The position numbers were made by a program, and so were the translations under genes. The notes under the pieces were generated by a model that saw nothing but the letters and a program-made list of their open reading frames with translations, ran no database searches and was not told the DNA's origin. A stretch of 64,000 nt of DNA. Source: a virus. Positions 1,624-60,759 of the stretch are shown here, in pieces (the first letter of the stretch is position 1; the number at the start of each line of letters is the position of its first letter). The stretch is from positions 25,573-89,572 of the IMG/VR virus record IMGVR_UViG_3300031787_000044; one strand, given 5' to 3'.

Positions 1624-2042
1624 CAACTATCATATCAACAAGTCAAGCGCCTGACGCAAAACCAATAGGTCTTAGTGTTGCGTTGACAACGAACTGGCAA
1701 CCAATTATAGAAGTTCCTAGTTATGAAATACCAGAACTTGTCTTTGGAGGCAGCACGGTAGTAGTTCCAGGTGTTGCCGAGATCATAACTCCACTTCTTA
1801 TTGCAAACAGAGACATACAGACTGTAGACGTAAGTGTAAGGATATATCGCGCAAGTTCAAACACTACGTTCTGGCTAGCGAATGAAATTCCGGTGCCTAA
1901 ATTCGATGTCATTGCGTATCCTATGAATGGTCAGTTCATATATACTGGCGATATACTCGAAGTAAAAGCCACGACCAACAATACAGTCGATGTGACTATA
2001 TCATATACGTTGGGTCAGGCGGAGGAAGACGATGTCTCTTAA
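1620..2042 (+). CDS. small beta-rich virion protein
   Basis: This 140-aa protein starts in an ATGA overlap with the preceding virion gene and runs 11 bases into the collagen-like fibre gene. Composition suggests an all-beta fold: alternating hydrophobic strands, many Thr and Val, no membrane segment and no signal peptide. It holds the same position as the 154-aa protein at 22712-23176 in the second copy of the cassette. Both share a strand pattern ending in an N-N-(S/T)-x-D/V-T element, but sequence similarity is weak. I do not recognise a named family. A connector or adaptor role between the large virion protein and the fibre is a guess from gene order. Confidence 0.6.
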   Translation: MTTIISTSQAPDAKPIGLSVALTTNWQPIIEVPSYEIPELVFGGSTVVVPGVAEIITPLLIANRDIQTVDVSVRIYRASSNTTFWLANEIPVPKFDVIAYPMNGQFIYTGDILEVKATTNNTVDVTISYTLGQAEEDDVS

Positions 2043-4731
2043 AAGTATACGCGGAGCACAATTAACTCCGACTCGTTTATTTGACACTCCAGTCCCTATC
2101 ACACTGGATCCAGTTGCGTTCCAGTTTACGGTAGTATATGGGCAGGATGGAAATCTTTATACTTCTGATGGAATTACCTGGAACATAGCTACAGCCACGC
2201 AAGGTATTCAGGGTATTCAGGGTAGCCAAGGTGTTCAGGGTAACTATGGCCCATCTCTCGTTGTGATTGGGACGATCGCTACTGTAGGTGCAACACCTCA
2301 GACCGCGCTAAATGCTGCGTTTCCAGGAGCTGCAGTCGGTGAAGGTGTTATTGATGAAACTACTCAAGATTTTTGGGTATACAACGGTACAAATTGGATT
2401 AATGCAGGCCCAATCGCTGGTGTTCAAGGTGTTCAAGGTGTTCAGGGTGTTCAGGGTACGCAGGGAACGCAAGGCCGCCAAGGTATTCAGGGTATTCAAG
2501 GTACAGTTGGGCAGGGTACACAGGGTTTCCAAGGTATTCAGGGAAATCAAGGCGTTCAGGGTATTCAAGGTACTGCTATCCAAGGTATTCAGGGTATCCA
2601 AGGTATTCAGGGTAGCCAAGGTGTTCAAGGTATCCAAGGTATAGATGGAACTCTTGGCGCAAAAGGCGATCAGGGTATTCAAGGTATTACAGGATCACAA
2701 GGTATCCAAGGTAGCCAAGGCATTCAAGGTATTCAGGGTACTTCTATCCAAGGTATTCAGGGTATTCAAGGTAACCAAGGCGTTCAGGGCATTCAGGGTA
2801 CTGCCATCCAAGGTATTCAGGGTATCCAAGGTATTCAGGGTATCACTGGCGAACAAGGTATTCAGGGTGCGATGGCTGCTCGCGCATCTGTCGAAATTAG
2901 CGCTACTCCACCGTCTAGCCCAGGAATTGGTGACCTTTGGTGGGATCCGGAAAGCGGTGAACTCTATGTTTATTACGATGACGGCGATACTATTCAATGG
3001 GTAGAATCTACAAGCGTATTTGGCGTCCAAGGTAGTCAAGGTGTTCAGGGTATTCAGGGTACTGCCATCCAAGGTATTCAGGGTATAGCTGGAACTGGAT
3101 CGCAGGGCGTTCAAGGTAACGCAGGTTCTCAGGGTGTTCAGGGTATTACTGGAGCGCAGGGTATCCAAGGTATTACCGGATCGCAAGGTGTTCAGGGTAT
3201 CTCTGGATCGCAAGGTATCCAAGGTATCCAGGGTATTGAAGGAGAAGGTGTTCAGGGTATCCAAGGCATCGCTGGATCTCAAGGTGTTCAAGGTATTACT
3301 GGAGCACAGGGTATCCAAGGTATTGAAGGAGAAGGTGTTCAGGGTATCCAAGGCATCGCTGGATCACAAGGTGTTCAGGGTATCACTGGAGAAGGTACAC
3401 AAGGTTCTCAAGGTATCACTGGATCGCAAGGTGTTCAGGGTATCTCTGGATCGCAAGGTATCCAAGGTATTGAAGGAGAAGGTGTTCAAGGTATTCAGGG
3501 TATCGTTGGCGAACAAGGTGTTCAGGGTATCACTGGAGCAGGTACACAAGGTTCTCAAGGTATCACTGGATCGCAAGGTGTTCAAGGTATTCAGGGTATC
3601 GTTGGCGAACAAGGCGTTCAGGGTACTGGTGGCGCCGGTGAACAGGGCGTACAAGGTATTACCGGATCGCAAGGCATACAAGGTATCACTGGAGATCAAG
3701 GTGTTCAAGGTACAGGTGGCGCCGGCGAACAAGGCGTTCAAGGTATCACTGGCGAACAGGGTATCCAAGGTATTACTGGCGAACAGGGTGTTCAGGGTAT
3801 AACTGGATCTCAAGGCGTTCAAGGTATTACTGGAGAACAGGGTATCCAAGGTATCGCTGGAACTGGTTCTCAAGGTGTTCAGGGTATATCTGGTGAACAG
3901 GGAATACAGGGTATCACTGGTGAACAGGGCATCCAAGGTATCACTGGAGCACAAGGTGTTCAGGGTATCCAAGGTATCACTGGTGAACAGGGAATACAGG
4001 GTATCACTGGAGATCAAGGTGTTCAAGGTACTGGGGGTGCTGGAGAGCAAGGTGTCCAAGGTATCACTGGATCTCAAGGCATTCAGGGTATTACTGGCGC
4101 AGGATCACAAGGTGTTCAGGGTATCACTGGTGAACAAGGCATTCAGGGTATCACTGGTGAACAAGGTGTTCAGGGTATCACTGGTGAACAAGGCGTACAG
4201 GGTATCACCGGATCTCAAGGTACGCAAGGAACCGGAGCTCAAGGTATTCAGGGTATCACAGGCTCTCAAGGAGTTCAGGGTATTCAAGGCCCGGAGTCTG
4301 CTTCTGCTTCAGCAACAGATCTTCAAGCAACAAATGATACTTCGACGAACGCAAGCTTCTATCCTGTGTTTGTAGCTAACGTTGGCTCCGTTCAGACTGT
4401 TAATGCGGCCGATAGTAAGTTATATTTCAATCCAAGCACTGGAACACTCAACGCGACAAACTTTAACTCTCTTTCTGATATTGCGCATAAGAAGAATCTC
4501 AACCCAATTTCTGAAAGCCTGGACATCTTAAGTAAGATAAACACGTACGAATTTAATTGGAAGAGCAACGATATAAAGAGTTACGGTGTAATCGCTCAAG
4601 AGTTTGAAAAGATTATGCCTGAACTCGTAGAAACAAATGGAAATGGAGATAAGACGGTGGCTTATATACCGCTCATTGCTATCATGATTGATGCAATAAA
4701 GAAATTAGGAGAGAGAAATGGCAGCATTTGA
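2032..4731 (+). CDS. collagen-like tail fibre with C-terminal S74 intramolecular chaperone
   Basis: This 899-aa protein is mostly Gly-X-Y triplets of the GIQ/GVQ/GIT type from about residue 60 to 760, expected to form a trimeric collagen-like shaft. Two non-collagen inserts interrupt it: a ~55-aa knob near 75-130 (VIGTI..VID..FWVYNGTNWIN) and another near 280-333 (GDLWWDPESGELYVYYDD). The C-terminus is a Peptidase_S74 auto-processing chaperone: LSDIAHKKN places Ser815 and Lys820 five residues apart, the spacing of the known Ser-Lys dyad. The family trimerises fibres and then cleaves itself off just before that Ser. The gene is the third of a cassette repeated at 23179-25161. It is probably a receptor-binding or accessory fibre; the receptor is unknown. 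Confidence 0.85.
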   Translation: MSLKSIRGAQLTPTRLFDTPVPITLDPVAFQFTVVYGQDGNLYTSDGITWNIATATQGIQGIQGSQGVQGNYGPSLVVIGTIATVGATPQTALNAAFPGAAVGEGVIDETTQDFWVYNGTNWINAGPIAGVQGVQGVQGVQGTQGTQGRQGIQGIQGTVGQGTQGFQGIQGNQGVQGIQGTAIQGIQGIQGIQGSQGVQGIQGIDGTLGAKGDQGIQGITGSQGIQGSQGIQGIQGTSIQGIQGIQGNQGVQGIQGTAIQGIQGIQGIQGITGEQGIQGAMAARASVEISATPPSSPGIGDLWWDPESGELYVYYDDGDTIQWVESTSVFGVQGSQGVQGIQGTAIQGIQGIAGTGSQGVQGNAGSQGVQGITGAQGIQGITGSQGVQGISGSQGIQGIQGIEGEGVQGIQGIAGSQGVQGITGAQGIQGIEGEGVQGIQGIAGSQGVQGITGEGTQGSQGITGSQGVQGISGSQGIQGIEGEGVQGIQGIVGEQGVQGITGAGTQGSQGITGSQGVQGIQGIVGEQGVQGTGGAGEQGVQGITGSQGIQGITGDQGVQGTGGAGEQGVQGITGEQGIQGITGEQGVQGITGSQGVQGITGEQGIQGIAGTGSQGVQGISGEQGIQGITGEQGIQGITGAQGVQGIQGITGEQGIQGITGDQGVQGTGGAGEQGVQGITGSQGIQGITGAGSQGVQGITGEQGIQGITGEQGVQGITGEQGVQGITGSQGTQGTGAQGIQGITGSQGVQGIQGPESASASATDLQATNDTSTNASFYPVFVANVGSVQTVNAADSKLYFNPSTGTLNATNFNSLSDIAHKKNLNPISESLDILSKINTYEFNWKSNDIKSYGVIAQEFEKIMPELVETNGNGDKTVAYIPLIAIMIDAIKKLGERNGSI

Positions 4732-23178: not shown

Positions 23179-25161
23179 ATGGTAAAATTAGTATCCGATT
23201 ATACCGTATCTAATAGGATAGTAAAAACTCCTTCTACTGAAGTGTCTCCTGAAAGATATAGGTACGTTAATTTAGCTGAAACGGAGCCGGATCTTGGTGT
23301 TCCTCAGGCAAACGGATATATTCTTACATCGAATACTATTGGAACCAGAGCTTGGATAGACGGTTCTACAATATTTGGGCAACAGGGTATTCAGGGTATA
23401 CAGGGTATTCAAGGAAGCTTTGGTCAGCAAGGTATACAAGGTCTTCAGGGTACAAAGGGAGATCCATTTAAGGTTCTTGGATCCGTTCCTGACGTAAATG
23501 TGAATCCACCAAACAATCCTCAGACTACATTAAGCGCGGCCTTTCCAAGTCCATCTCTTGCAGATGGTGTTATTGATGAGGCGACATTTGATCTTTGGGT
23601 TTGGAATGGTACATCTTGGATAAACACAGGAGATATCGTTGGACCTCAGGGTATTCAAGGTATTCAGGGTCGTCAAGGTATCACCGGATCTCAAGGTGTA
23701 CAAGGTATTCAGGGATCTCAGGGTGATCAGGGTATTCAAGGTACTACTGGTGACCAAGGTATTCAAGGTACTGGAGGACTCGGTACACAGGGTGTTCAGG
23801 GTATCACTGGATCTCAAGGTGTTCAGGGTATTACCGGCGAACAAGGTATACAAGGCACTCAAGGTGCTCAGGGCACTACTGGTGAACAAGGTATACAAGG
23901 TATTAGTGGTACTGGGAACCAAGGGCCACAGGGCACTCAAGGCACTACTGGTGAACAGGGTATACAAGGTGTTCAGGGCGTCCAGGGTATTCAGGGTACT
24001 TCAATCCAGGGTATCCAGGGTATCGCTGGATCTCAAGGCGTTCAAGGTATCCAAGGTATAGACGGTACACTAGGATCTCAAGGCGAGCAGGGTATCCAGG
24101 GTATTCAGGGTATCACTGGTTCGCAAGGTATACAAGGTATTCAGGGTACTGCTATTCAGGGCATTCAAGGTATCCAGGGTATCACTGGATCTCAAGGCGT
24201 TCAAGGTATCCAAGGTATAGACGGTACACTAGGATCTCAAGGCGAGCAGGGTATCCAGGGTATCACCGGATCTCAAGGTGTACAAGGTATCCAAGGTATA
24301 GACGGTACACTAGGATCTCAAGGTGTTCAAGGTATCCAAGGTATAGACGGTACACTAGGATCTCAAGGCGTTCAAGGTATTCAGGGTATTCAGGGTACTG
24401 CTATTCAAGGTATTCAGGGTATCCAGGGTATCACTGGATCTCAAGGTGTTCAAGGTATTCAAGGTATAGACGGTACGCTTGGTTCTCAAGGCATTCAAGG
24501 TATCCAGGGTATCACTGGATCTCAAGGCGAGCAGGGTATCCAGGGTATCACTGGATCTCAAGGCGTTCAAGGCATTCAAGGTATCCAGGGTATCACTGGA
24601 TCTCAAGGTGTTCAAGGTATTCAAGGAACCCAAGGTATCCAAGGTATTCAAGGTATTCAGGGTCGTCAAGGTATCACCGGATCTCAAGGCGTTCAAGGTA
24701 TTCAAGGTATTCAAGGGCCGGCGTCTGCTTCTGCTTCAGCAACAGATCTTCAAGCAACAAATAATACTTCTACGAACGCAAGCTTCTACCCAGTCTTCGT
24801 TGCAAACGTTGGATCTGTTCAAACAGTCAATGCTGCCGATACAAAACTTTATTTCAATCCAAGTACCGGAACACTCAACGCGACAAACTTTAACTCTCTA
24901 TCAGACATTACTTATAAAGAAAATATCGAAAAGATACCAAACAGTATAGAGATGCTAAATGCAATACAGACATATTCGTTCAACTGGAAAGATAATAAGA
25001 ACAAGAGCTACGGGGTAATCGCGCAAGAGTTAGAAAAGGTTATGCCAGAACTCGTAGAAAAAAACGCTAACGGCGATAAGACAGTTTCTTATATGCCTTT
25101 GATCGCAATCGTTATTGAAGCAATAAAGAAGTTAGATGATAAGATCGAAGGTAAAATATAA
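23179..25161 (+). CDS. collagen-like tail fibre with C-terminal S74 chaperone, copy 2
   Basis: This 660-aa protein begins with ~60 non-collagen residues, then short GIQ triplets, then a ~60-aa knob ([40 protein letters not shown]). A long Gly-X-Y shaft runs to about residue 515. The linker [13 protein letters not shown](D/N)TSTN and the S74 chaperone domain closely match the fibre at 2032-4731. LSDITYKEN gives Ser575 and Lys580 as the presumed self-cleavage dyad. Several internal blocks of the shaft are near-perfect DNA repeats (around 24040-24500), so copy number may vary by slippage or recombination. The stop overlaps the ATG of a short fibre-adaptor ORF. Confidence 0.85.
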
Positions 25162-51875: not shown

Positions 51876-54233
51876 TTAGCCGCGCCGTCTTATTCTTGGG
51901 CGAGGCCAAAGCCTCCTTCCATAGTAGACGAAACTTCCGTTTACCGTCCTAGGTCTAAAGTTCGTTTGTGGAAAAATTCCACCTTCAATTAGTCTTTGAT
52001 TAAACCATCTAGCGAATCTATTCGGCGCGCCTTGAAGACTTAGCGTTTGCATTGCGCTATCTTCACCAGTGTCACCCATCTGATCTTTATTTGAAAAATC
52101 TATTAACCATCGAGATGCTTCTTGCTGTTTTATGTTTGGCCAATGTTCCGCAAGACACGCAATCATGCCAGTTACTTGAGGCGCAGCCATGCTCGTACCT
52201 TGCTGCTTGCCTAAGAAGTAGTTCGAGTTTCTAGGATCGAGTACGGATGAGCTCACAGCTCCATATGCAGTATGCGTACTACTCTGTATTTGACGCCCTG
52301 CTGCAAAAATATCAACTTGGTTTCCACAGTTACTAAACGTTGCTTTGTATTCCGCAGAATCGCTTCCTACTGCGCCTACTGTTATAACCGGAGCATATCC
52401 TTGCCCAGCAGCCCCAGTCCCACGATTTAGATACAAAACAAAGTTTGTACCTGAGACCGTAGCATAGAATATATTATTGTAATCCTGATCAATATTATTT
52501 ACAACTTTCCAATATTCATTTCCTGCAGCAGCTATTACTATTATTCCATCATTTATTGCATCTTGTATATCAGCATCGCGTGATGTAGAATAAAACGGAA
52601 CTTCTGGAGTCGTCCCGGTAGTATAGAACCCGCGTGCTTGTAATTCTGCAACTGTAAGAGATCTTCCAGGATTAAAATCTACACCGCGATAAACAACTCT
52701 AGTGACTGGCCCAAAACTGCCAGTGTTCCATATAATACTGCTTCCATAACTATGATTTGATATCGTAGGATTTCTTCTTCCAGTATTCGTGTTAATTGGC
52801 TTGTTATTATGCCAAGCTCGTACATAATCCCAGTATGTTGTAGAATCTAATCCAAGAGTTCCAAAGTTTTGATTTGATGAATAGATGCTAATATTATAAA
52901 TGTTTGCATCTCGAGCCCAACCTTGAGTATTACCAGCTGCGGTTCCTGCGACATGCACGCCGTGATTGTTTTGAGAAGTTCTGTTTGAGCTGTTTGGATC
53001 AACATACGGAGTATACACATAAGTTCCAGTGCCGAAACCAACATCGTTTTGAAACCAATTGTACTGAACTATTCTAGAACCGCCGGTGCCATCAGAATTT
53101 ACAGCAAACTCCGGATGAGACGGATCTACGTGTCCGTCAAAGATTACAACATCAACGTTTCTTCCTGACGCTGTTATAGTTAAGTCTGAAGAAATATTAG
53201 AGGTGTTGTTATCGCCCCAGTTTGTTCTATTCGCAGTGTTGTTTACTAATTGATATATTGAAGGCTCGCTTCCATCACATAAATCAATGCGAGGTTCGGC
53301 AAATTGTAATCTTGTGGTATTATCGTTGCAGTAGTAATGATAGCATCTATGTTGCCCTGTTGTACTAGTTGGGCCCCATTTTAGATCACTAACTATGTTG
53401 CAATAACTAATATTTCTTACTTTTGTTGTACTACCCGGTGTGTAATAACCGGAATCTGGATGATTTCCTGTATGCGTTGTGTTTGATGGGTATATAAATC
53501 CACACACTAGATACCATTGATTCTGTGTTAGAATGCTTGTGCTAGAACATTCCCAATATGGATTACTTTTTTGACTTCCGTCGGACGTAGAAAATACACC
53601 ACCATCCGAATTAGTACCAAGATAAAATGTTCCGCCACTGGTAGACGATGTTCTCCGAACCCATACAGAGAATCTGTAAAGTTTTGATCTATCGATAGCT
53701 AGGTAACTAGTATTCCATCCGCCATCGGCCTCATTGTTTCCGCTTGCCCGCGTTTCCCAAACAACACTCGTATTTCCCCAAGGATCTGTAGCTGATACTC
53801 TCGCGTTTTCAGTAGTGTCACCGTTTTGATTATAATACACGATACTCCCGGTTTGCCCTGCACGCCAATCAGTAGTGTCAATCAAAGATGGTCTAATAGA
53901 CTCTGACTGTCTTAAAAGACCCCAATTTATATCGTTTGCATCGGCGCCCCAATCTTTAGCAAAGCTACCTGATGTAATTTTATATCCTAATGGTCGCGTC
54001 GAGATCTCCAACAATTCTAAGAGTTCAACACCCCAAACTCTCTCGTCTTGACGCAACAGTTCTGCCTCTTCAAAGGTAAGCATATAATGAGTGTTACGGC
54101 TCATTGGTCTTCTTTTTGCTAAAACAACAGCCCTATCTGGAATGTAAAGACTTCCCCCAGGAGTCTCCATGTCTTCGTAGAAACTTTCAAGATCTTCGTG
54201 ATTGTAGAGAGTAACTATCCACTCTTTTAGCAT
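51876..54233 (-). CDS. subtilisin-like (S8) serine protease with inserted binding domain
   Basis: This 785-aa protein has a ~75-residue N-terminal domain (LKEWIVTLYNHEDLESFYEDM..) and a subtilase fold. The presumed catalytic triad is Asp366 (VVIFDGHVDPSH), His424 (NNHGVHVAGTAAG) and Ser681 (QGTSMAAPQVTG), with oxyanion Asn572 (AAAGNEYW). Between NDINWGLLRQ (~100) and the Asp motif lie ~220 residues of beta-rich, Thr/Ser/Trp-rich sequence resembling a jelly-roll carbohydrate-binding module. The stop of the giant fibre gene directly adjoins the ATG, so it is a late protein. No signal peptide is present. It may be virion-borne, processing fibres or degrading host surface protein. Confidence 0.85.
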   Translation of the reverse strand: MLKEWIVTLYNHEDLESFYEDMETPGGSLYIPDRAVVLAKRRPMSRNTHYMLTFEEAELLRQDERVWGVELLELLEISTRPLGYKITSGSFAKDWGADANDINWGLLRQSESIRPSLIDTTDWRAGQTGSIVYYNQNGDTTENARVSATDPWGNTSVVWETRASGNNEADGGWNTSYLAIDRSKLYRFSVWVRRTSSTSGGTFYLGTNSDGGVFSTSDGSQKSNPYWECSSTSILTQNQWYLVCGFIYPSNTTHTGNHPDSGYYTPGSTTKVRNISYCNIVSDLKWGPTSTTGQHRCYHYYCNDNTTRLQFAEPRIDLCDGSEPSIYQLVNNTANRTNWGDNNTSNISSDLTITASGRNVDVVIFDGHVDPSHPEFAVNSDGTGGSRIVQYNWFQNDVGFGTGTYVYTPYVDPNSSNRTSQNNHGVHVAGTAAGNTQGWARDANIYNISIYSSNQNFGTLGLDSTTYWDYVRAWHNNKPINTNTGRRNPTISNHSYGSSIIWNTGSFGPVTRVVYRGVDFNPGRSLTVAELQARGFYTTGTTPEVPFYSTSRDADIQDAINDGIIVIAAAGNEYWKVVNNIDQDYNNIFYATVSGTNFVLYLNRGTGAAGQGYAPVITVGAVGSDSAEYKATFSNCGNQVDIFAAGRQIQSSTHTAYGAVSSSVLDPRNSNYFLGKQQGTSMAAPQVTGMIACLAEHWPNIKQQEASRWLIDFSNKDQMGDTGEDSAMQTLSLQGAPNRFARWFNQRLIEGGIFPQTNFRPRTVNGSFVYYGRRLWPRPRIRRRG

Positions 54234-57200
54234 TTAGGATGCCTCTATCTGTACTAGAGAAAGTGTAACTGTTACAGTTGACGTTCCTTCACCCTGATAT
54301 GTTACTTTACACGGAATGTTAGTTGTTGGAGTCGTTTCATAATTATATCCGAAAACAGCAGGAGAGATTAAAACAGTTTCAGAACCACCTGTTACAACTT
54401 CAACAATAACTCCAGCATCTGGATCCGGATCTGTGTATTGATTTCTTGATGCATCTGCTGTTCTACTCGCACCATTTACATATAGTCTCACCCAAGCAGC
54501 TGCGCTAGTGGTGATAGCCATTAGAGAATATCCTTTGAACCCGGTAATATTTAGATCTGCAGTACTAAAGCTTGCTAAAGAAGAAGTTGTTCCGGCCACT
54601 GTTGTTCTAGCAGCCATGCCAGATCCACCTTCGCCTCCACTGGTACCTTGAATACCTTGCGGGCCAGTTATACCCTGAACCCCTTGAGACCCAGCCCCAC
54701 CAGTACCCTGAATACCCTGAACACCTTGAGACCCAGCACCACCAGTACCCTGAATACCTTGGACGCCTTGATTTCCAGAAATGCCTTGGATGCCCTGTTC
54801 ACCGGTAATACCTTGTTGACCGGTGATACCCTGAATACCTTGGACGCCTTGATTTCCAGAAATGCCTTGGATGCCCTGTTCACCGGTAATACCTTGTTGA
54901 CCGGTGATACCCTGAATACCTTGGATACCTTGCGATGCAATTCCTTGCACACCCTGTAAATTTCCGGTGTGATAAACAGTATAATCGTTTATCTTTACAC
55001 CATTTATACTTGGAACTCTAAAGTGGATTTCGTCATCTGCGTCATTTGTCATTTGTAGTGTAAGCTGTGTGGCTTCACCGGATGAAGCTGTAAGATACAT
55101 AGATGCGGTATCACCGCCTCCACCAAACGCATCGTTAGGGAATCTTATTCCACTCGCACTAGCGTGAATTGTGTTAGTCGTATGCACAGTGCCATCTTCA
55201 TTTATTCTAAAGATCGTATTTGTGCTATTAACAGTATCTATATAAGGGCGCGTGTTATTGTAGAAACCGAAATAATTACTAGCTTCTGTATTGTTATCAT
55301 CTATAAAGAAGTGCATAGACTGTCTAGAATAAGCGGCCCAGGCGTTTTCTCTATCGGTCGGTTCGTCATAATCTGGATCTATTCTAAGACTCGCCTCACT
55401 CGCAGCTGCCCCAGAAGTACCTTGAATACCTTGAATACCTTGAATACCTTGACGACCTTGAATACCCTGAATACCTTGCGAACCCGATCCACCACCTCCA
55501 ATTACGTATGTTTCAGAGTCGAATGAAGATCTCCAAACTGTAGTCCCGCTATCTGGGTTGTGATAGAACCTTCCAGGCTCAGAAATTTCACTAAACGGAC
55601 TTACAACATCCGTAACATCTTGGTAATACGGAGCAGTTGACGATGGGCCGTAGACTCTGCCTGTCTCTACATCATATACAAGACCATCGTCATCCGAAAC
55701 ACCGCCAAACGTCGCGTTCGTAAAAAACGACGATGCCTGACTATGGACCAAATAACCGTACTGTTTAGAGCCTTGGAATTTTGCCAAATATGCTGCACTA
55801 GTTAGATTAACTGTGAGTGCCGAGGCGCTAAGAAGAGTTGTGCTGCCGAATGCCGATGTTTTCGCGGTAATGCTATTCCCGCTTCTAACTATTTCTACTC
55901 TAGTAGATCCAAGCGCAGCCCAACCACCGGTTGCTGGAACCGAAGAAGACCCGTTACTAATAACAACTTGGTCAGATTGTAAAAGATTATAAACTAACGA
56001 CCAAGTCCCGACCGCCGCGCCCGACCCTCCACCGGTTCTAATTGCTGATAGCGTATGTTCTCTATAGCCAGCTTGACCAAACGTTCCTTCGGTTGCGAAT
56101 GCAATCACTACACCAATCGTGTCATTGTCACCAGCAGAGCTAGAAAGGTCAACCGTGTGAGTATACGTTAAGTATCTTTTCTCAGAAACAAACCCGGCTG
56201 CAGTTCCAGTATTCAATGAGCCAAGGATTCTTTGGTTGCCTGCGTCATAAGACCATTGCGACGGTCCTACGTCTGCAGCACTAGCTGGATATACTAGAGA
56301 AGAATTATGTGAAAACCTATACCAAGTGTTAAAGATTTCTTGTTGACTAACTACCGGTGGAGGACCGGTAAAGTAAGTAGGTAATTCACTCACATTAGTG
56401 ATGATAGTTGGTTCTATGTTAAGAAGATCGTCGAATTCCGCGTTGTTTGTGCCGCTCTGTGAATTATATAAGACCTCGCCTTCTTGACCGATAGGCAGTG
56501 TTGAGCCTCCGCCTGCGCCAGCGTTACCTTGAACTCCTTGAATACCCTGTGAGGTTCCGGCTTGTCCTTGAAGACCCTGTTCTCCAGCACCCGTAATTCC
56601 TTGAATGCCAACACTTCCTTGAATACCTTGGATACCCTGTACACCTTGGTCTCCTGTACCTTGGATACCCTGAATACCTTGTCTACCCTGAATACCCTGA
56701 ATACCTTGACGACCCTGAATACCTTGGATTCCTAGAATACCCTGAGTACCTTGTTCACCACGAATACCTTGGAAACCTTGCCTTCCTTGTACGCCTTGTG
56801 CGCCAGTCGTTCCTTGTCTTCCCTGAAAACCTACACTGCCTTGGACTCCTTGACGCCCTGTAGTACCTTGAGTACCTTGACGTCCTTGGACTCCTTGGCT
56901 GCCTTGTGTTCCCTGCGTTCCTTGCGTTCCTTGAATACCTTGTACACCTTGGTTTCCTTGAATACCCTGGATACCTTGACGACCCTGGATACCTTGAATA
57001 CCCTGAATACCTTGACGACCCTGAATACCCTGAATGCCTTGGATACCTTGAATACCCTGGATACCTTGGATACCCTGTACGCCTTGAATACCTTGAATAC
57101 CCTGGATACCTTGGCGACCTTGAGTACCTTGCATGCCCTGGATACCTTGACGGCCCTGGCTACCTTGGATACCTTGAACACCTTGACGGCCCTGAATACC

Positions 57201-59816
57201 CTGGCGTCCCTGAACGCCCTGAATACCTTGGCGGCCTTGGGTTCCTTGCGTTCCTTGAATACCCTGAGTACCAAAGCCTCCCTGAACACCTTGCACACCT
57301 TGGCCTGGACCCCTTAGGCCTTGAATACCTTGTATGCCTTGATCTCCAATAGTTCCTTGCGATCCGGTATTTCCAGTACCTTGAATACCTTGAGGACCGA
57401 CGCGACCCTGAACACCCTGAACACCCTGCTCGCCTTGAATACCTTGTCGGCCTTGTGTTCCCTGCGTTCCTTGCACGCCTTGGATACCTTGCGGCCCAAC
57501 AACATTTCCTACATTTATCCACTCTCCGCCAGCATCAGGCGTGAACACCCACAAATCGAGCGTAGCTTCATCGATAACCGCTTCACCAGGAGTCGCACCA
57601 GGAAACGCAGATTCTAATATGATTTGCGGATCAAATGTTGGCGCTTGATTTACATCTTGAATAGAACCGAGTATTCTAAATGGACTTCCAACTGTACCTT
57701 GGATACCCTGAATACCCTGCTCGCCTTGAATACCCTGAACGCCTTGGATAGAAGTTCCTTGAATACCTTGGCGGCCTTGATTGCCTTGAATACCCATGTT
57801 TCCAATAATGCCTTGGAAACCCTGAGGTCCTTGCATACCTTGGTTACCCTGAATACCCTGTTCACCTTGAATACCCTGAATACCCTGTTCACCTTGAATA
57901 CCTTGGATACCCTGAATACCTTGGCGTCCTTGGATACCTTGGATACCTTGAGGACCTACTATGTCACCAGTGTTAATCCATTCCGTACCATTCCATAACC
58001 ATAACTCATTTAGCATTTCGTCAATAACGCCGTCCGACAAGTCCGGGCTGGCTATGGCAGGTCTTTGAGTTGGCGGTTGCCCATCGAGCGTCGGACCAAA
58101 CGCTTCTCTTATTATTTCTTCTGGAGTTCTAGCAGGAAAATTAACATTTACGTCTTCGATAGATCCTATTATCCTAAACGGATCGCCAACCTTCCCTTGG
58201 ATACCTTGGATACCCTGTAAACCTTGACTACCCTGGATGCCTTGACCACCTTCACCACCTTGGATACCCTGAACACCCTGTTCGCCCTGAATACCTTGAA
58301 GACCTTGATGTCCGCCTCCACCCTGGATACCTTGAACGCCCTGATCCCCTTGAACACCTTGGTTGCCCTGAACGCCCTGAATACCTTGGAAACCTTGAAT
58401 ACCCTGTACACCTATATTACCAGCAACGCCTTGGTTACCTTGAATACCTTGAGTACCTTGGATACCCTGCAGTCCTTGTAGACCTTGAACTCCTTGAGTA
58501 CCTTGGCTACCTTGAGTACCTAAGTTCCCTTGTACACCTTGAACCCCTTGAAAGCCCTGAATGCCTTGAAATCCACGGATACCTTGAATACCCTGCATAC
58601 CTTGGAAACCTCGTGGACCTTGGATAGGCCCAACATTTATCCAAACTCCGCCACCGGTATATGCCCAAAGCTCAACCTCGCGTGGTGGGACTGCCAGTTC
58701 TGCGCTATCTATTACGGTATCTCCAATTACCGCAGAAGGAAATTCAGAATTTAATAAACCGTTGGGATCTCCAGTGGCATATACATCGTCTACGGAGCCA
58801 ATGATTTTGAGAGCTGGACCAAAATTTCCTTGAATGCCTTGGAAACCTTGGAAACCTTGATTGCCAGTAATTCCTTGAACTCCTTGAGTACCTTGGAAAC
58901 CTTGCGATCCTTGAGTACCTTGGAAACCTTGAACGCCCTGCTGGCCGGTGATACCTTGGACACCTTGATTTGCAGTACCTTGGATACCTTGTATACCCTG
59001 TTCGCCTTGAATACCTTGGAAACCTTGGAATCCTTGAGTACCCTGCTCACCTTGAATACCCTGGATACCCTGAATACCTTGCTCACCTTGGATACCCTGC
59101 TCGCCTTGTACACCCTGGATACCTTGACCACCAACAAACCCTGCAGTACCCTGTGTACCTTGCTCGCCCGTGTTACCTTGAAGACCCTGAACACCTAAAC
59201 CGCCGGTGCCTTGAATACCTTGGAAACCTTGCAGTCCTTGAAATCCCTGAAAACCCTGGATACCTTGCATACCCTGGACGCCTTGATCACCCTGAAGACC
59301 CTGAACGCCTTGAACACCCTGAACACCCTGCTCACCTTGGATACCCTGCATTCCTTGGAAGCCTTGAATACCTTGGAAACCACGGATACCTTGGATACCT
59401 TGATCTCCAGTACCCTGAACGCCCTGTTCACCAGTAACACCCTGAACGCCCTGTTCACCTTGGATACCCTGAACACCTTGCTCTCCAGTAGTACCCTGAA
59501 CACCCTGTTCACCCATTATACCTTGTAAACCCTGAAAGCCAACTTCTCCGCGGCCGTCAATTCCTTGGATACCTTGCTCACCTTGGACACCTTGGATACC
59601 TTGGATACCCTGAATACCTTGGATACCCTGAATACCTTGAGTTCCTTGTATACCTTGAACGCCTTGAACACCCTGATAGCCCTGAATACCCTGGGTGCCT
59701 TGCCCATTCGTTCCAGGATTAAGTCTTAGCCAGATATTGGTCCCAGCGTTGTAAATAAACGTGGACCCGCCGATAACGTGAGTATCTCCATCAGATGGTG
59801 ATGCAGGAAATGACAT
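54234..59816 (-). CDS. giant collagen-like tail fibre (1860 aa)
   Basis: The first ~40 residues are a fibre adaptor ([30 protein letters not shown]). Gly-X-Y triplets (mostly GIQ, GVQ, GFQ) then fill most of residues 40-1095. They are broken by three ~60-aa knobs at about 332-400, 543-625 and 708-770, each with a VIGS/ILGS..DV opening and an ELW/LWV...WIN.G closing. A beta domain (~1100-1440), a short shaft, a second domain ending YHTGN (~1470-1610), another shaft and a ~115-residue tip (~1745-1860) follow. No S74 chaperone is present. It is a long adhesive fibre; its length would make the collagen part alone several hundred nanometres if fully extended, an estimate from triplet rise. Confidence 0.85.
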
Positions 59817-60713: not shown

Positions 60714-60721
60714 TATTTATA
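60714..60721 (-). promoter_or_regulatory. T4-like late promoter (proximal)
   Basis: TATAAATA on the minus strand lies 23 nt before the PAAR-gene ATG at 60690. Confidence 0.75.
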
Positions 60722-60751: not shown

Positions 60752-60759
60752 TATTTATA
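60752..60759 (-). promoter_or_regulatory. T4-like late promoter (distal)
   Basis: This is a second minus-strand TATAAATA, 38 nt upstream of the proximal one and 61 nt before the PAAR ATG. It may add to expression of the long fibre unit. Confidence 0.65.

Follow-up and report, generated by a model that had tools for sequence, protein, structure and literature searches.

A subtilase gene directly follows a collagen-like fibre gene

The window, i.e., the whole stretch of 64,000 nucleotides analyzed here, belongs to a T4-like virus of bacteria. Its major head protein was nearest to those of Sinorhizobium and Methylophilales phages (65–66%), with cyanophages at about 61%. A subtilase gene was found at 51876–54233 (stop codon included) on the minus strand, which carries all features described below unless stated otherwise. 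Its open reading frame extends from an ATG at 54233 to a stop codon ending at 51876 and translates into 785 aa (P0001). The original prediction had placed this reading frame correctly and had left its strand unstated.

The identity of the product as a subtilisin-like protease, as originally proposed, was strongly supported at three levels. First, Pfam Peptidase_S8 (PF00082) matched residues 357–715 with 94.6 bits (cut-off of 21.8; 8.6e-27). Second, comparison with the PDB by sequence returned Aqualysin-1 as the best match (5.2e-9), with proteinase K-like enzymes also among the best. Third, the AF2 model of the protein (mean pLDDT of 75.9) was matched by Foldseek first to proteinase K-like enzymes and aqualysin in the PDB (E of 2.5e-14; TM of 0.78 on the target). 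A chance resemblance to subtilases was excluded by these three values. The catalytic domain, delimited by the Pfam envelope and the Foldseek matches to proteinase K-type enzymes, comprises residues 357–715 (52089–53165).

Within this domain, the residues named in the original prediction were found at their claimed positions: Asp366 (codon 53136–53138; VIFDGHVD), His424 (52962–52964; NNHGVHVAG), the oxyanion Asn572 (52518–52520; AAAGN) and Ser681 (52191–52193; GTSMAAPQ). Conservation was counted across 79 distinct near-complete relatives, using filled alignment columns only. The aspartate was present in 76/79 relatives and replaced by glutamate in the other 3/79, while His424 (78/78), Asn572 (77/77) and Ser681 (77/77) were invariant. 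Membership in S8 is reflected in the Asp-His-Ser order, the oxyanion Asn and the match of the predicted model to the subtilase fold. Since the structural match spans about 400 columns, a broken catalytic site appears unlikely from the model.

The gene directly upstream (54234–59816) encodes a fibre of 1860 aa with a collagen-like shaft (PF01391 Collagen, 5.7e-123; 266 G-x-Q triplets). Its last 128 aa (54237–54620) form a conserved C-terminal tip domain, the partner of the protease gene. This domain of about 125 aa contains many near-constant residues and is conserved whatever the shaft. A search for a second tip domain across the 89.6-kb record found none, and the sole copy precedes the protease. 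Two more collagen-like fibre genes are located in the window on the plus strand (2032–4731 and 23179–25161), neither with a tip domain.

Fibre and protease genes are separated by 0 nt, and a Shine-Dalgarno-like site for the protease, AGAGG (54242–54246), lies within the last codons of the fibre gene; the same arrangement was found in relatives. A docking role of the fibre's conserved LEA ending was considered, and this idea was weakened by the codons concerned (TTA GAG GCN), which in part serve to bind the ribosome for the protease gene. A fusion of the two proteins by stop-codon readthrough was rejected as a general explanation: the two reading frames agree here, but gaps of 1, 4 or 7 nt put them out of frame elsewhere.

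The original prediction had located the protease at the end of a late fibre unit. In agreement, two T4 late-promoter-like TATAAATA motifs (60714–60721 and 60752–60759) were found by pattern search upstream of small genes, the fibre and the protease. The motif occurs 21 times in the window, compared to 3.0 expected copies.

A propeptide-like N-terminus and a conserved basic tail

Residues 1–82 (53988–54233) were predicted in the AF2 model to adopt a beta-alpha-beta-beta-alpha-beta order and are probably an I9-type propeptide. Such propeptides are common in S8A enzymes, yet not universal. An hhalign comparison with a profile of four I9 propeptides gave a weak match (score of 22.9 and a probability of only 20; 30 column shuffles reached at most 16.5). 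In relatives of the protease, the Pfam I9 match was below the cut-off, and no propeptide was found when the N-terminal profile was compared with the PDB by sequence.

The segment NWGLLR (residues 103–108; 53910–53927) is probably an N-terminal segment of the mature enzyme. It is conserved in relatives, resembles PWGLDRI of aqualysin and contains a helix in the AF2 model (residues 104–108). At the other end, a basic tail (residues 750–785; 51879–51986) ending in RPRIRRRG is conserved in relatives and predicted to be disordered (pLDDT of 31–36). This tail is a candidate attachment peptide, and a better candidate for a docking signal than the LEA end of the fibre.

A CBM-like module is inserted in the protease

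Residues 113–333 (53235–53897) constitute an insert of 221 aa that is absent from relatives, as the aligned proteins of about 550 aa pass from residue 112 directly to residue 334. An assembly artefact was ruled out by the presence of the same insert-bearing protease in three further IMG/VR contigs, with a nucleotide-identical gene in two of them (L001 and L002) and a protein identical across the 303 aa present in the third (L003). Copies of this one phage differ in the fibre, with 1833 aa (L002) versus 1860 aa (window) alongside an identical protease gene, and an Ala/Thr difference from the window at fibre residue 1192 occurs in L002 and L003.

Since distant relatives of the insert were scattered by MAFFT in the full-length alignment, the insert was modelled separately (pLDDT of 79.3; pTM of 0.80). 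Structures of CBM4, CBM16 and CBM22 were among the best Foldseek matches of this model in the PDB (E of 5.9e-5 and up), and are thus among the solved structures nearest to the predicted beta-sandwich, with TM values mostly of 0.5–0.69 on the target and 0.34–0.49 on the query and 6–15% identity. Pfam gave no family match on the insert, with CBM_4_9 appearing at 0.037 in one of 13 relatives, and family libraries including Pfam and PHROGs gave no assignment and reached no CBM cut-off. The insert is CBM4/16/22-like by its predicted fold and lies outside the CBM families by sequence.

The original prediction of a jelly-roll-like domain of about 220 residues was borne out by the predicted fold. However, the insert probably does not separate a propeptide from the enzyme: the conserved NWGLLR lies upstream of it and argues against such a border position. 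Because the insert follows this segment, which is like the beginning of mature enzymes of the proteinase K type, it most likely stays within the mature, active enzyme.

The insert is a member of a module family found in phage tail and fibre proteins. Its closest relatives were a phage protein of 438 aa (75%), two similar proteins of 447 and 460 aa (59 and 51%), giant fibre-like proteins, tail-tip J-like proteins and Vibrio T4-like proteins located between tail-fibre genes. Among viral proteins, the insert model was matched best by a phage protein (54% identity) whose name refers to an SGNH esterase domain. The J-like tip protein, the Vibrio phage tail protein and the SGNH-esterase-named protein share the module with the window protease at 25–54% identity, but carry it in fibre or tail proteins or beside another enzyme name and not inside a protease.

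Other modules were observed in relatives of 856–930 aa, inserted at the same or at other sites; their names were given by eye, and Pfam reported S8 only. In one relative (L148), the site of the window insert is taken by a domain of some 310 aa (EHIMHTLHMHG), and L148-like domains are located after HPEF in three others (L110, L090, L122). L085, L087 and L149 have, near core residue 301, about 330 aa that look rich in beta-strands, and L126 has a LamG-like stretch near the C-terminus. In S-RIM2 phages, the baseplate gene region encodes a protein of 1713 aa, part of which shares 75% identity with the L148 domain. The sharing of modules with tail-region proteins speaks in favour of a function at the surface of the virion.

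The EHxMHTxH domain of about 300 aa (L148:1168–2109; L153:6001–6918) was also observed in 85 cyanophage records and, in some proteases, inserted at two different sites. It had no match in Pfam or PHROGs.

The protease belongs to a known but unstudied family

A first IMG/VR search yielded 44 loci, of which 43 contained protease sequence; in the remaining one, L041, just the insert module was present. The window protein matched phrog_9158 at 5.5e-105 in two stretches parted by the insert. This family is annotated as 'unknown function' in PHROG. Its members are named 'subtilisin-like serine protease' in Synechococcus phages S-H38, Sf-FR1 and S-WAM2, 'peptidase' in S-CREM1 and hypothetical protein in S-RSM4. 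An S8 peptidase is mentioned in P-HM1/P-HM2 (Sullivan 2010, PMC3037559), and a literature search found no study on a protease family of the phrog_9158 type; the family is known already but unstudied. Like the window protease, these members have a tip-domain fibre directly upstream, a propeptide-like N-terminus, the core and the tail. Unlike it, they lack the CBM-like insert, comprise about 550–570 aa and are only 35–45% identical by pieces. A search of isolates with an insert-free relative returned 41 records, exclusively Synechococcus and Prochlorococcus phages, other cyanophages and unassigned marine viruses.

In comparison with S8A enzymes of the proteinase K/aqualysin type, the window protease has the fold, the Asp-His-Ser order, the oxyanion Asn and probably the N-terminal propeptide in common. 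It differs by its position as a phage gene after a fibre gene, by long loops, by the inserted module and by the conserved basic C-terminal tail.

Fibre tip and subtilase form a two-gene cassette

In the first locus set, the tip domain was found directly upstream of the protease in every complete locus. A tip-profile search of IMG/VR yielded at least 588 relatives. In the best 80 of these, which represent 40 protease clusters, a subtilase gene was present 0–7 nt downstream in 80/80 cases; this sample was picked by similarity to tips from protease loci, and the true paired fraction may be lower. In a set of 87 distinct tip genes combining the best IMG/VR matches, isolates and a second search, the next gene encoded a subtilase in 77/87 cases (counting L024 and L037, where the protease has a GTG start codon), a member of a non-protease family starting with MAVT or similarly in 8/87, and another protein in 2/87. 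Since tip genes also precede genes other than a subtilase, the tip domain is not exclusive to the protease. On the tip tree, partner type changed 3 times, compared to a mean of 9.6 after shuffling, a clustering which is favoured by the kinship of copies.

The tip is also retained next to a diverged partner. The tip of L093 groups among close relatives, yet the downstream subtilase is very divergent, and in S-CAM1 the tip is kept and the subtilase is likewise very divergent. The S-CAM1 product (L054:5317–7572; AOV57849), named 'putative proximal tail fiber', matched Peptidase_S8 at 3.5e-10 and is encoded 1 nt after a tip-domain gene; its name is probably a misnomer.

Shafts upstream of the tip were unrelated between loci and ranged from about 190 to 1860 aa. 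Collagen-like shafts were present in the window (1860 aa), L019 (1738 aa) and L101/L123 (about 1460 aa), while most others were short and unrelated. The protease is one half of a two-gene cassette with a tip-domain fibre, an arrangement that is new in this analysis.

Two further arrangements were observed. In some cyanophages, large MAVT-type proteins replace the subtilase after the tip (L053:5380–7206, L055:8882–11185 and L058:12388–14358); the S-H9-1 member had no Pfam match and the S-BM3 member no PHROG match. Two neighbouring subtilase paralogues with a tip-domain gene between them are present in L024 (185–1804 and 2519–4189) and L037 (1257–2876 and 3588–4670), with identities of about 29% and 50% to the window protein.

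Proposed role of the protease

Location of the protease on the tail, as suggested originally, is supported by comparison, namely by the conserved fibre tip upstream, by the insert shared with tail proteins and by the label of a relative in phage S-SCSM1. This relative (QFG06492) matched phrog_9158 at 3.9e-116, and its record gives it the label 'virion protein'; it is distant from the window protease, larger and preceded by a different gene. For S-SCSM1 virions, 45 proteins are reported by mass spectrometry (PMC9602691).

On balance, the gene arrangement and domain content point to a subtilase borne on the fibre tip that acts on a host surface protein, with the insert adding binding, and we consider this role somewhat probable. 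Expression of the two genes would be coupled and late, and the protease would sit on the fibre, at its conserved C-terminal tip domain or close to it. The protease would be synthesized as a zymogen, from which the I9-type propeptide may be cut off near residues 83–102, probably by self-processing, while the CBM-like insert would remain in the mature form. During adsorption, the CBM-like module may help to tether the virion to sugars or glycoproteins on the cell surface, and the protease may trim a host surface protein, clearing the way to the injection receptor. Since insert-free proteases are the majority of relatives, the binding module would be dispensable for the basic function.

Phage-tail enzymes are known mostly as sugar cutters. 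Sugar-cutting tailspikes place an enzyme on a tail appendage, where it clears the path to the receptor. The window enzyme would work alike, but it is a serine protease encoded by a separate gene and has no homology to them.

The main rival is a fibre maturase, which would act inside the cell during assembly, cutting the neighbouring fibre (e.g., where shaft and tip meet) or a different tail protein, and would not need to be present in the virion. The strict pairing of the protease gene with the tip domain would be expected of such an enzyme, and a glycine-rich stretch ahead of the tip domain offers a possible cleavage site. However, as different loci have unrelated shafts, a common cut site would be possible only at the tip; the tip domain is also found elsewhere beside non-protease genes; and binding-type inserts would make little sense in an intracellular enzyme. 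Of the two functions proposed originally, surface cutting fits better because the shafts are unrelated, their lengths are very different and the tip alone is shared, and we regard fibre maturation as unlikely.

More doubtful still is a non-virion late protein that acts on the host, e.g., in lysis or in receptor shaving for progeny release or superinfection block, and lies beside the fibre only for co-expression. The protease is indeed a separate gene, and one could imagine the release of an enzyme that bears a sugar-binding-like module. Against this, no secretion signal was noted and the N-terminus is a propeptide-like domain, the association with a single tip domain in 77/87 tip genes is tighter than co-expression requires, and the S-SCSM1 relative bears its virion protein label.

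An enzyme that cuts only its own propeptide and then serves as a stable fold presenting binding modules for adhesion would accommodate the different modules at several insertion sites and the appearance among the structural matches of the window model of PCSK9, a subtilase known to cut itself only, but it is equally improbable, as the majority of relatives lack any insert that could be presented and still keep the active site.

Beyond the window, the tip-borne subtilase may be an example of a widespread enzymatic receptor-binding device of T4-like aquatic phages, in which a protease on a dedicated fibre-tip domain takes up exchangeable modules in its surface loops (CBM-like, EHxMHTxH-type, LamG-like or other beta-rich ones) and the host is changed by a module swap. 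We put this generalization forward tentatively, as less probable than the role proposed for the protease itself.

The points of interest are the fibre-tip/protease gene pair and the swapping of modules. The pair is common in aquatic T4-like phages, with isolates confined to picocyanobacterial phages and unassigned marine viruses. If the proposed role is true, the cutting of surface proteins would be part of adsorption in a major group of aquatic phages, and genes now annotated as hypothetical or under a wrong name ('baseplate wedge subunit', 'putative proximal tail fiber') would gain a role. Members bearing inserts represent a natural experiment on the acquisition of host specificity.
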